This document shows positions 12,068 through 28,249 of a stretch of DNA of 28,255 bases, piece after piece. Every line of letters starts with the position of its first letter. Within the stretch, counting starts at the first letter, position 1. Origin of the DNA: a virus; the IMG/VR virus record IMGVR_UViG_3300033145_000751, positions 1 through 28,255 of that record; one strand, written 5' to 3'. The notes below the pieces were generated by a model. That model did no database searches, was not told the DNA's origin, and was given only the letters and a program-made list of their open reading frames with translations. A program made the position numbers and the translations under genes.

Positions 12068-13288
12068 TTGGCTATTACACCAGAAGAATTCCAACGGCAG
12101 GTAGAAGAGGCTTTAAGAAGGACTACCAAGGCCGATGTGGACAGGATAGTAAGCGAGATTAGGGAGAAGTCCCCAGGCTTTGCACCTAGCTACCAAATTG
12201 GAAGTAGCGGTTCTAGCAGTAGAAGTTCTAGCAGCAGAAGTTCGAGTAAATCTTCTACTGCGAAAAGCACTAGCCCTTATGGTACTTCTGTTGCTGACGC
12301 CGGTGGTTGGGATGCGTGGAATAAGATGGTGGCTGCTACTGTTGCAAAGAATAAGGGGTTAGTTCCTAATTATCCTGATAATGGTAGCTTGATACCTATT
12401 AGACAAACAATGGAAAATTTGGGATACCAAGTAAACTATAATCCTGAAAGCAGGGTTATTTCTTTATTTGACCCTAGAAGTGGACGAACTGGTACTATTT
12501 CTCCTGACGCTTACACTATAAAAAATAATAAAGCCTATATTAATCCTAGTTATGTAGGGAGTTGGCTAAGTGGCGATTTATCAAGCAAGCCATTGCGCCA
12601 AGATTGGACTGTACCAAAACCCCCAGAACTATCTACTGTAGTACCCCGACCTGAACTACCCCCTGTAGTACCGCCTCCTGTCCCTCAAATGCAACTTAAC
12701 GCCTATACACCCTGGAGACCTAACCCCAACATACGTTTGAGTAGCGGGGAGGAAGTTGTAGTGCCTACCCTGCCCGGTCTCAACCAGTGGTACGGCTTGC
12801 AGGACAGCTTGTTCAGCCGTTATATGGCGCAGGAGGAACAGAAGGCGCGGCAGCAGGAAATAGCGCAGAAGATTGAAGAAGCTAGGCGTGAGGCTGCCCT
12901 GGAACGCTGGAAGATTGCCGGCGAAGTTTTGACGGACGAAGATGCGGCTATCCTGGGCGTACCTAAAGGGACTAAGACCAGCGACCAGCGGTATAATGAT
13001 GTCTATTTGAGCATACAGCGGCAGAAGGCGGCGAGTAGTAGAGGCACGTCTACTAGTGGAATAGACAAAGCTGCTACTAATGAAGCTATAGCGCAAATAA
13101 TGACTTATGACAATGTCCAGGATGCTGTTAATGACTTCAAAAAATATGCTGGTACGATGGCCAGTAGAGGTGTAGATATAAAAGCTGTTATGGATGCGAT
13201 TATTAACTTATGGCCAGAGGCTGCAACGCTTTTTTCGGGTAGTGACAGTAAAGAACCTGAAAAGCAATGGTGGCAGTTTTGGAAATAG
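12068..13288 (+). CDS. Modular virion protein with stalk-like domain and coiled coil
   Basis: This 406-residue protein starts at TTG 12068 behind AAAGGGGTGA. Modules in order: a helical N-terminus (1-35); a Ser/Lys-rich linker (46-68); a stalk-like repeat at ~105-168 (SLIPIRQTMENLGYQVNYNP is the clearest part); a Pro-rich linker (183-208); a charged coiled coil at ~250-290; and a C-terminal helical domain. Such linkered modules suit a fibre-like or internal virion protein. Low-complexity DNA codes the Ser linker. It lies between two other large helical proteins and probably belongs to the same ejection/tail-tip complex. No enzyme motif seen. Confidence 0.6.
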   Translation: MAITPEEFQRQVEEALRRTTKADVDRIVSEIREKSPGFAPSYQIGSSGSSSRSSSSRSSSKSSTAKSTSPYGTSVADAGGWDAWNKMVAATVAKNKGLVPNYPDNGSLIPIRQTMENLGYQVNYNPESRVISLFDPRSGRTGTISPDAYTIKNNKAYINPSYVGSWLSGDLSSKPLRQDWTVPKPPELSTVVPRPELPPVVPPPVPQMQLNAYTPWRPNPNIRLSSGEEVVVPTLPGLNQWYGLQDSLFSRYMAQEEQKARQQEIAQKIEEARREAALERWKIAGEVLTDEDAAILGVPKGTKTSDQRYNDVYLSIQRQKAASSRGTSTSGIDKAATNEAIAQIMTYDNVQDAVNDFKKYAGTMASRGVDIKAVMDAIINLWPEAATLFSGSDSKEPEKQWWQFWK

Positions 13289-22991: not shown

Positions 22992-23071
22992 CATTGGTTC
23001 AGAAAGTCTAAAATTACCTCTTGACAAGTTCAGGTTCAATAAACTATAATAAGTTCAGAGGTGGTGAACTT
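22969..23071. promoter_or_regulatory. GTTCA operator array of the genetic switch
   Basis: GTTCA half-sites occur at 22969, 22997, 23028, 23034 and 23053. Two have inverted partners at the same 7-nt spacing: TTCA-N7-TGAA (22970-22984) in the PRM spacer, and AAGTTCA-N7-TGAACTT (23051-23071) between the cro promoter and its start codon. This arrangement suits repressor/Cro dimers competing for both promoters. Confidence 0.65.
23021..23050 (+). promoter_or_regulatory. Early promoter (PR-like)
   Basis: A perfect TTGACA (23021-23026), 18-bp spacer and perfect TATAAT (23045-23050) precede the Cro-like gene. GTTCA operator half-sites lie in the spacer and just downstream. It is the strongest promoter by consensus in the window and drives the early plus-strand operon. 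Confidence 0.9.
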
Positions 23072-26950: not shown

Positions 26951-26968
26951 ACTTTTGCAAGTTTGCTA
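26943..26968 (+). promoter_or_regulatory. Long hairpin over the stop of the 106-residue gene
   Basis: GTAGCA pairs with TGCTAC, and inside it AACTT pairs with AAGTT around a TTGC loop, leaving a small TG bulge: 11 pairs in total. No T-run follows. It marks the beginning of a 177-nt noncoding stretch and may protect or process the upstream mRNA. Confidence 0.5.
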
Positions 26969-27009
26969 CCCCGTTCGCGACTTAATACGGACACCAGGGG
27001 CTTTTGGGA

Positions 27010-27110
27010 ATAGGCGGCGGGGCGGCAGATAAATGGGTGGGTAGCTTAGCGTAACTTTATGTTACGACGGGCGAGGGTTCGGGTGGGGAATCCGGTCAAG
27101 TAAATTTTTT
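27010..27110 (+). other. Structured intercistronic element A
   Basis: This G-rich stretch precedes a 34-codon gene. It contains GTAGC, then hairpin CGTAAC-TTTAT-GTTACG (27050-27066), then a second stem GGGTTC/GAATCC with a G-rich loop, ending in AATCCGG. The order GTAGC-hairpin-GAATCCGG recalls element B, but primary sequence similarity is low. Confidence 0.35.
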
Positions 27111-27128
27111 TCGGAGGAGGTAAGAATT

Positions 27129-27233
27129 ATGTTTAAGAGAGAAGTTGCTAAGTATCAATGGATTGGCAAAATGAGGTGGAAATATAGGTTACTACATGCG
27201 TGGATGGCTTTACGTGGTTTTCATATAGCGTGA
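27129..27233 (+). CDS. Tiny basic protein (34 residues)
   Basis: A 34-codon frame begins at ATG 27129 behind a very strong CGGAGGAGGTAAG. The product is basic and aromatic (FKREVAKYQWIGKMRWKYRL, then AWMALRGFHIA). The ribosome binding site is the main support; function unknown. Confidence 0.5.
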   Translation: MFKREVAKYQWIGKMRWKYRLLHAWMALRGFHIA

Positions 27234-27241
27234 TTTAGTTT

Positions 27242-27344
27242 TTGCAGGGCGCGGCGTGGTGAGACACGTAGCAGGAGGGGTATACAATAAAAGTATACTT
27301 CACGGTGAAATGCCGGAGTCGGTTTGAATCCGGCCGCCCTGCAA
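27242..27344 (+). ncRNA. tRNA-like cloverleaf element B
   Basis: TTGCAGGGCG (27242-27251) and CGCCCTGCAA (27335-27344) pair perfectly over 10 bp. The closed region holds four hairpins in order: CGTG-GTGAGA-CACG (27255-27268), GTATAC-AATAAAA-GTATAC (27280-27298), TTCA-CGG-TGAA (27299-27309) and a T-arm-like GTCGG-TTTGAAT-CCGGC (27318-27334). This is the shape of a class II tRNA, but the anticodon-like loop has no U33, the T-loop lacks C56 and no CCA follows. It lies directly upstream of a zinc-ribbon gene. Function unknown. Confidence 0.5.
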
Positions 27345-27368
27345 CTTACAAAAAGGAGGAAGCCAACC

Positions 27369-27527
27369 ATGGAAACTTATAACAGCGTTGTTATAGATAA
27401 GATTGATTATGCTGGCAAGTTAGAAAAGGACGTAAATATGTTCCAATGCGAGTGTGGTTTCGATGAAATAGAACGAGAATTTTATTACTGCCCTAACTGC
27501 GGTAAAAAAATTGATTGGCAGTTTTAG
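27369..27527 (+). CDS. Small zinc-ribbon protein
   Basis: From ATG 27369 (AAAAAGGAGGAAG) the product is 52 residues. It has CEC...YYCPNCGKKIDW, a four-Cys zinc ribbon, preceded by a beta-like N-terminus (ETYNSVVIDKIDYAGKLEKD). An in-frame upstream extension runs into element B and is unlikely to be translated. One of several tiny zinc proteins in this region. Confidence 0.7.
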   Translation: METYNSVVIDKIDYAGKLEKDVNMFQCECGFDEIEREFYYCPNCGKKIDWQF

Positions 27528-27537
27528 CTTAGTCTTA

Positions 27538-27628
27538 TTGCAGGTGGCGGCGTGGTGGGACACCCGCGCTAGGAGCAGGGATGCAGCGGTGCCGGGTAAT
27601 TTCCCTAACCAGCTCCTATATCCGGCAA
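27538..27628 (+). ncRNA. Structured intercistronic element C
   Basis: The first 26 nt (27538-27563) match element B at 23 positions. It folds as hairpin GCG-(T)-GGTG-GGA-CACC-CGC (27550-27567) followed by a long arm TAGGAGC/GCTCCTA (27570-27576 with 27612-27618) that encloses AGGGA/TCCCT. A closing stem TTGCAGG/CCGGCAA (one mismatch) joins the two ends, as in B. It lies just upstream of a 43-codon gene. Confidence 0.45.
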
Positions 27629-27660
27629 GCAGATTCGAAAGAGGAAAGGAGATGAAAAAT

Positions 27661-27792
27661 ATGGACGATAACAAGGCAGAACTTGTGACACTTATTTGTA
27701 AGGAATGTCAAAAACGTGGTGTAACACTCAAAGAAGTACAGGAAGTTTTTGCAGCAGTATCGCAATTTTATTTTCAAAACGCAAGACCGTAA
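27661..27792 (+). CDS. Small early protein (43 residues)
   Basis: ATG 27661 with AAAGGAG at 8-nt spacing gives 43 residues: DDNKAELVTLICKECQKRGV, then LKEVQEVFAAVSQFYFQ. It has a helical build and one Cys pair (CKEC). The ATG at 27652 touches the ribosome binding site and is less likely. Function unknown. A hairpin GGAGG-AATTG-CCTCC (27800-27814) follows. Confidence 0.6.
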   Translation: MDDNKAELVTLICKECQKRGVTLKEVQEVFAAVSQFYFQNARP

Positions 27793-28016
27793 AAAATGGG
27801 AGGAATTGCCTCCTCCCCGGGCTATCCTTTATGGTATGGTCTGCAGCAATAATAACAACCATCAAAATTAGTCTTGCCAGTTTCTGATTCAGCTCGTTTG
27901 ATTGTAGCGTGGCAATCTGCCTCGTATCCAATATATTTCGATTATTAATGCTTGGCAGATATTGAAGAAAAAAGTTAAGAGTTATGGGTTTATCAAGATT
28001 GCTGATAGGTTTTAAA
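27793..28016. other. Noncoding AT-rich gap
   Basis: I see no convincing gene on either strand in this ~220-nt stretch. It contains the hairpin at 27800-27814 and inverted segments near 27912 (CAATCTGCC) and 27955 (GGCAGATATTG) that could pair at long range. Confidence 0.5.
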
Positions 28017-28075
28017 TTGGGGCGGTGGTGGAAGAGAGACACGGCGCAGTATGTGCAAAAATTGCACGTACTTAA
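28017..28075 (+). other. Structured intercistronic element D with an 11-bp hairpin
   Basis: After a G-rich GGGGCGGTGGTGG and a GAGACAC motif shared with B and C, AGTATGTGCAA (28048-28058) and TTGCACGTACT (28062-28072) pair over 11 bp (one G-T) around an AAA loop. TTAATCGG follows and then the ribosome binding site of the last gene. Confidence 0.45.
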
Positions 28076-28090
28076 TCGGAGGGGAAAATG

Positions 28091-28249
28091 ATGAACAGCC
28101 GTTTTGAAAAGTGCCCGTATTGCGGGGCCTGGCGTCTGATAGAAGAACTCGAAAACCATATAGGTGTTTGCTACACCTACAGAAACATAGCTAGTGTAAT
28201 GCTAAGCCCGGAAAATTACTATGTGGATGTATCCAGCGATGAACCTTGA
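28091..28249 (+). CDS. Small C2HC zinc-finger-like protein
   Basis: The ~52-residue product starts at ATG 28091 (or 28088) behind GGAGGGG. It has CPYCGAWRLIEELENHIGVC, a C-x2-C-x11-H-x3-C finger, followed by a Tyr/Asp-rich tail ending SSDEP. It may bind nucleic acid or protein. It is the last complete gene of the window, with its stop at 28247-28249. Confidence 0.7.
   Translation: MNSRFEKCPYCGAWRLIEELENHIGVCYTYRNIASVMLSPENYYVDVSSDEP

Follow-up and report, generated by a model that had tools for sequence, protein, structure and literature searches.

A putative phage-borne family of tRNA-like RNAs carrying a variable insert in place of the anticodon arm

The window analyzed here, a viral record of 28,255 bases, carries an intact cloverleaf-like RNA, element B, which from comparison with its relatives almost certainly belongs to a real RNA family. 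The family frame runs, from 5′ to 3′, through an acceptor stem, a CG linker, a D-like hairpin, an insert, a T-arm and the 3′ acceptor strand, with a near-invariant GGTGRGAC in the loop of the D-like hairpin and TTYRAAT in the T-loop. The insert replaces the anticodon arm, measures from about 8 to more than 200 nt, and has no arm in common across the family. Comparison of sequences settles the frame and its covariation, the variety of the inserts, a covarying structure within one insert class, the transfer of whole elements between unrelated neighborhoods, and their tight intercistronic placement. As to role, we regard it as evenly balanced whether B is at once a structured phage RNA whose frame imitates the upper half of a tRNA and a discrete RNA that would act in trans. 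The trans-acting reading itself, in which a discrete RNA would be freed from a phage transcript and work through its insert, we hold with a little less than even confidence.

The window phage is suggested to be a Clostridia phage by its large terminase, which at 55% over 231 aa is nearest to that of Thermoanaerobacterium phage THSA-485A. The last 5 kb of the window consist of small early-type genes, arranged as a rightward block after a promoter-like site, and a BLAST comparison of this early region with annotated phages gave no match. Proteins encoded next to the elements were tried as a route to close relatives; no relatives were found for the 106-aa neighbor, and four weak matches were found for the 52-aa neighbor. 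One close relative of the window phage is L303 (83% over 778 nt in the early genes). An earlier note on this DNA had pointed to four gaps in the block, each before an RBS-like site and a small ORF, and that arrangement is borne out by the four ORFs given here. The features, all on the forward strand, are as follows.

23021-23050 (+), candidate early promoter TTGACA-18-TATAAT (12/12), a pattern match only, where the rightward block of early genes starts
26963-27031 (+), 69-nt block conserved with the related phage L303 (95.7% identity; L303 7625-7693)
27010-27110 (+), stretch A, membership not supported; no covariance-model match, fold z -1.14
27129-27233 (+), 34-codon ORF lying between A and B, with its stop 11 nt before the 7-bp acceptor of B
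27242-27344 (+), element B, intact family member, cloverleaf-like RNA; 65.3 bits with covariance model R1, 54.1 bits with leave-one-out model R2, fold z -4.89 against dinucleotide shuffles
27245-27251 (+), 5′ acceptor strand of B, CAGGGCG, 7/7 pairs with 27335-27341
27252-27253 (+), linker CG of B; the C at tRNA position 8 is invariant in the alignment
27254-27269 (+), D-arm-like hairpin of B, GCGT-GGTGAGAC-ACGT, carrying the near-invariant family loop
27270-27317 (+), 48-nt insert of B, replacing the anticodon and variable arms, with a 9-bp hairpin (27277-27301) and a small hairpin (27303-27315)
27318-27334 (+), T-arm of B, GTCGG-TTTGAAT-CCGGC, 5/5 pairs, with the family T-loop
27335-27341 (+), 3′ acceptor strand of B, CGCCCTG; no CCA encoded
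27369-27527 (+), 52-codon ORF starting 27 nt past the acceptor of B, with zinc-ribbon-like CxxC motifs and a sub-threshold Pfam zinc ribbon
27538-27640 (+), element C, a 3′-truncated copy that retains the D-arm, the insert, the T-loop and the 5′ side of the T-stem but has lost the 3′ side of that stem and the 3′ acceptor strand
27661-27793 (+), 43-codon ORF after C
28019-28080 (+), stretch D, possible remnant of a 5′ half; strong hairpin, no T-arm, no covariance-model match, fold z -4.09
28088-28249 (+), 53-codon ORF after D, zinc-ribbon-like

The closing stem of B reaches 10 bp, with TTG (27242-27244) and CAA (27342-27344) adding 3 bp to CAGGGCG/CGCCCTG (extended form TTGCAGGGCG/CGCCCTGCAA). 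In a constrained fold, B gives -39.3 kcal/mol against -41.1 for its minimum free energy structure. The 9-bp hairpin of the insert closes a 7-nt loop, AATAAAA, without U33, and comparison of inserts found that of B in no other element. A single ORF overlaps B on its own strand, and it encodes only 24 aa. No tRNA was called in the window by ARAGORN, and a scan of the window against Rfam gave no match at the gathering score. When the E-value was relaxed, B was aligned to tRNA-Sec at 19 bits against a threshold of 47, and ilvH appeared in the window at 17 bits, far under its threshold. The likeness of B to a tRNA was absent from the earlier note.

A search of IMG/VR with a 15-mer common to B and C (GGCGTGGTGRGACAC) returned 112 stretches. 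Applied to 1.04 Mb, a descriptor made up of a 7-nt acceptor, the D-arm, the T-arm and a complementary acceptor yielded 37 distinct elements, against none in the reversed control. Circularity was avoided by defining matches through the D-loop and T-loop only and then testing them for acceptor pairing. The 34 distinct elements so obtained paired at 7/7 acceptor positions in 29 cases and at 6/7 in the other 5, while 7/7 pairing occurred in 5.5% of controls with shuffled 3′ strands. Relaxing the D-stem recovered compensated variants around GGTGRGAC, including TCTA/TAGA, CACTT/AAGT and AATAC/GTAT. In an alignment of 17 sequences, both sides change in 15 of 16 pairs, and the covariation score is 0.948, compared with 0.224 after shuffling and at most 0.144 in slid controls; the percentage of paired cells in this alignment is partly circular, as members were picked for pairing, a reservation that does not extend to the variety of pair types. 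The third acceptor pair is variable, and position 8 is C in every aligned member. Model R2, built without B, recovers B at 54.1 bits (E 7.9e-11), with the next match at 13.8 bits, and R1 gives ordinary tRNAs no more than about 33 bits. The closing stem runs past 7 bp slightly further than chance would have it, tending to 1-3 bp beyond, and a strict rule of a 12-bp acceptor branch was dropped. CCA is encoded in 1 of 53 relatives.

The earlier note had proposed a family of structured RNAs for which no counterpart had been described, to be checked by covariation and an Rfam search, and this proposal holds: homologues are many, compensatory change is strong, and no Rfam family was matched at threshold by the members scanned. 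No description of such a family was found in Rfam or in the open-access literature, which was the literature covered. Cellular genomes gave few matches (3 true ones in a collection of 84,980 species, and 0 in 398 sampled genomes), so the family is virus-borne. Some phages carry two members (L109 2732-3250, L046 3895-4417 and L027 1772-9671), some of them called as tRNA-Ser(aga) by ARAGORN.

An ordinary or decayed tRNA gene of the Leu, Ser or Sec type would account for the T-arm, the acceptor stem, the sub-threshold tRNA-Sec match of B and the ARAGORN calls of tRNA-Ser(aga) in L046 and L109. We consider this extremely unlikely. The 7-bp acceptor and 5-bp T-arm with a TTCRANN loop are indeed present (6-7 acceptor pairs in 34 of 34 elements; 7 and 5 pairs in B). 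However, neither B nor most of the family has an anticodon arm with U33 and a readable anticodon, and the family has C8 and GGTGRGAC where a tRNA has U8 and an AGnnGG-type D-loop. Tools that model tRNAs do not recognize B, and ARAGORN calls few of its relatives. The covariation of the frame shows that the frame is maintained. Compared with tRNA (RF00005) and tRNA-Sec (RF01852), then, the family has in common the acceptor/T-arm geometry, the TTCRAAT loop and a D-like hairpin with GG; it differs in that most members lack an anticodon arm, and in the C8, the fixed D-loop, the large variable insert and scores below gathering.

Non-coding RNAs that resemble tRNAs are already a known kind, represented by T4 RNAC and RNAD, tmRNA, YrlA and pseudo-tRNAs. 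This family is set apart by its invariant D-loop and C8, by the lack of an anticodon arm, by inserts that are exchangeable and by its wide distribution in phages. Like the family, tmRNA holds an inserted domain on a tRNA-like domain without an anticodon arm; family members are much shorter, with no tag reading frame seen and no conserved G3-U70 pair. Membership in tmRNA was rejected on the variable third acceptor pair and on the 24-aa ORF being the sole one to overlap B on its strand. The bacterial Y RNA YrlA (RF02553) is likewise a non-coding RNA with a tRNA-like module, and it too was rejected: no element matched RF02553, and the sole match listed, which was sub-threshold, fell on a pair of ordinary tRNAs. 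T4 RNAC and RNAD (species 1 and 2 RNA) are stable phage-encoded RNAs of a tRNA cluster, and the 3′ end of RNAC consists of a T-arm and an acceptor-like strand; unlike the family, they have no GGTGRGAC D-loop. RNAC scores 28 bits with R1, within the range of ordinary tRNAs, and was set aside as a member, although it is of the same general kind. Functions of these two RNAs are still reported as unknown (PMC3014915, PMC9697503), and the family offers a way into such stable tRNA-like phage RNAs. The tRNA-Other of Bacillus cereus is a pseudo-tRNA reported to act inside a larger regulatory RNA rather than in translation (PMC3399842); it is a single cellular tRNA derivative, with neither exchangeable inserts across a family nor the GGTGRGAC D-loop.

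The earlier note had described a series of four such elements in the window, and this did not hold up. Only B is a convincing and intact member; C is a broken copy, A and D are unproven, and the four are not equivalents. The common 5′ start of B and C was confirmed (86% identity over 29 nt). Both had been described as structured with paired ends, which was confirmed for B and not for C, whose whole stretch folds no better than its shuffles (z 0.17) and whose 3′ acceptor strand is lost. An RBS-like sequence occupies the place of the missing 3′ T-stem and acceptor strand. C scores 13.8-14.4 bits with the covariance models, and 94 nt of it (27546-27639) have 96.8% identity to an element that is intact in a different phage, L265 (700-811, minus strand), with which the C-carrying phage has no DNA similarity beyond the element. 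As judged from these matches, C is a genuine relative of the family that has lost its 3′ half, and it is probably non-functional. Neither A nor D matched R1 or R2. Of the strong hairpins ascribed to both, that of D stands, its fold significance being in effect due to this one hairpin, and stretch A folds no better than its shuffles. A possible likeness, noted by eye only, is that of the GTGGAAGAGAGACACG of D to the D-arm in members of the Pseudomonas type. The first 22 nt or so of A fall within the 69-nt block shared with L303. This block (CCCCGTTCGCGACTTAATACGGACACCAGGGGCTTTTGGG...) is non-coding and lies just 5′ of the RNA elements in both phages; in L303, it directly precedes that phage's single element.

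The inserts are unrelated between groups, yet they are conserved wherever a comparison is possible. Sorting 73 elements by insert gave 44 groups. The element of L303, for example, has the acceptor, T-arm and 3′ flank of B but a different insert. The class to which this insert belongs, class (i) (GGGARGNGCGGGAACAAGCGCNCA), occurs in 65 IMG/VR stretches, and among 14 class (i) RNAs both sides change in 20 of 32 pairs, including helices inside the insert. Class (i) extends to the cultured P. aeruginosa phages phi297, AUS531phi and D14P; an element of the phi297 type was absent from all E. coli genomes searched. In Pseudomonas-type members, the D-loop is enlarged, the T-loop is non-canonical and the closing stem measures 10-20 bp. 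Whole elements also recur between otherwise unrelated loci. L087 and L136 have only the element in common (95% over 200 nt), with unrelated flanks, and L087 shares the 200 nt of the element, and little else, with a Sporomusaceae genome. Genes downstream differ among loci with the same element. The closing helix is about 21 bp in the elements of L149, L150 and L152.

Where these elements lie is compatible with a role in cis. Outside one clade of large phages, the L157 clade, a stop codon is found 4-15 nt upstream in 12 of 40 elements (30%, against 5.3% in the control), and a Shine-Dalgarno sequence with ATG is found 15-50 nt downstream in 14 of 40 (35%, against 6.4%). In the L157 clade itself (17 phages), the element is located within a tRNA cluster or next to one, usually behind tRNA-Lys, and the ATG of a conserved gene follows the acceptor by 3-8 nt, with no Shine-Dalgarno sequence and no space for one (L157, L160, L172, L190, L209 and 12 more loci). 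RNase P and RNase Z are the enzymes of 5′ and 3′ tRNA maturation, and the parts of a tRNA that such maturation enzymes recognize are those retained in the family frame. These observations would fit tRNA-style punctuation, in which the two enzymes would cut the ends of the element within a polycistronic phage transcript and the excised RNA would be a by-product. The downstream gene would gain a new 5′ end, and 3′ processing in the L157 clade would leave a nearly leaderless mRNA. Excision of intergenic tRNA-like structures sets mRNA ends in mitochondrial tRNA punctuation and at the t-elements of plant mitochondria; those cases are organellar. Punctuation would also explain why inserts vary freely between groups. 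However, a by-product would need neither the insert structure that class (i) keeps through compensatory change nor whole inserts common to otherwise unrelated loci. The 8-nt D-loop is conserved more than end processing should require, and the stem of B is 10 bp. We regard punctuation as rather unlikely.

Some elements precede recombination genes, as in L303 (YqaJ/RecT) and phi297 (PD-(D/E)XK/RecT). The phi297 element belongs to the early operon, where it separates a regulator from the exonuclease/RecT genes; a strong intrinsic terminator stands about 40 nt downstream, and no promoter-like site was found before the recombination genes. A hypothetical protein gene, phi297_00020, overlaps the RNA element (L349 2501-2691, equal to phi297 12974-13164) and is probably a spurious call. 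The put RNA of phage HK022 is a structured antitermination RNA found in early operons upstream of terminators, and a similar element acting in cis would let RNA polymerase pass the terminators of the early operon as the nascent RNA is made. The portability of the element between operons agrees with this, as does the frequency of terminators within 130 nt downstream, which is 8 in 74 for elements that are not of the L157 clade and 1.8% for control positions. For the phage family, position alone is suggestive of put, which has no tRNA-like frame. Downstream of most members, and of B among them, no terminator is detectable, and a terminator would suit a separate RNA gene equally well. Antitermination would leave the tRNA-like acceptor/T-arm geometry and the residence in tRNA clusters unexplained, and we consider it distinctly improbable.

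The earlier note had left the choice between a repeated cis-regulatory leader and an RNA processed from the early transcript. The latter is closer to the evidence, because the same RNA precedes unrelated genes and because of the phi297 terminator; a leader of the next tiny gene fared poorly. B, C and D do lie just upstream of an RBS, as do a third of the relatives, a placement that agrees with the family proposal of the earlier note. For a leader that governs translation of the next small gene, one would not expect the same element to precede differing genes at different loci, or just one of the four window stretches to be intact, and we judge this reading very improbable. The insert of the L157 group is pyrimidine-rich (TTATTCCTTTCTT) and resembles the anti-Shine-Dalgarno tail of 16S rRNA. 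Its complementarity to RBSs of the AAGAAAGG type, at genes some 200 and 500 nt upstream in the cluster, would favor control of translation but may only reflect common Shine-Dalgarno sequences. An RBS antisense role for this insert is at most possible, as it complements common sequences of that type and no single target is consistent.

The explanation that we prefer, a trans-acting RNA, is favored because the frame is free of decoding parts, inserts are conserved where this can be tested, and the element moves as a unit. The frame retains the features seen by proteins that bind or process tRNAs (acceptor stem, T-arm and elbow) and drops the part that decodes. We propose that the element would be transcribed as part of the early operon and then released as a stable RNA, for canonical members probably through RNase P and RNase Z. 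The released RNA would act in trans, the frame lending stability or tRNA mimicry and the insert specificity. The 10-bp closing stem of B, together with family stems slightly beyond 7 bp, means that tRNA maturation of B is not assured. Also counted against a trans-acting RNA are the non-canonical T-loop and the 10-20 bp closing stems of the Pseudomonas type, the intercistronic placement, which suits a cis role equally well, the position of some elements just upstream of recombination genes, as expected of a cis regulator, and the RBS-complementary L157 insert, whose complementarity does not consistently point to one target. One RNA could combine trans action, punctuation and antitermination. 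A broader and more tentative idea, which we think possible although we would not favor it, is that of a chassis and payload: an anticodon-less tRNA mimic, spread across phages of many hosts, that would use tRNA-style processing and stability to deliver swappable effectors against or upon the host RNA machinery early in infection.

Whichever reading applies, the family offers a defined fold, more than 70 examples from environmental phages and cultured temperate phages of P. aeruginosa, and tractable models in phi297 and AUS531phi. Should inserts be exchangeable while the frame stays constant, the family would be nature's equivalent of the tRNA scaffolds on which RNA engineers build. The cis alternatives, too, would involve something out of the ordinary, namely a tRNA-like element by which phage operons define the ends of their mRNAs or the readthrough of terminators. 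Many family members sit in phage tRNA clusters, and elements are often in early or tRNA operons. In two cases, a permuted (two-piece) phage tmRNA lies directly downstream of the element, inside a tRNA array (L148 860-1368, minus strand; L152 1774-2178, plus strand). An abiF RNA (RF03085, 57 bits) is found at L192 347-383 (plus strand), 13 nt 3′ of a family member. Finally, one big phage tRNA cluster contains a 154-nt tRNA match with a large insertion (L064 5151-5304, plus strand; 49 bits), possibly a further insert-bearing tRNA-like element.
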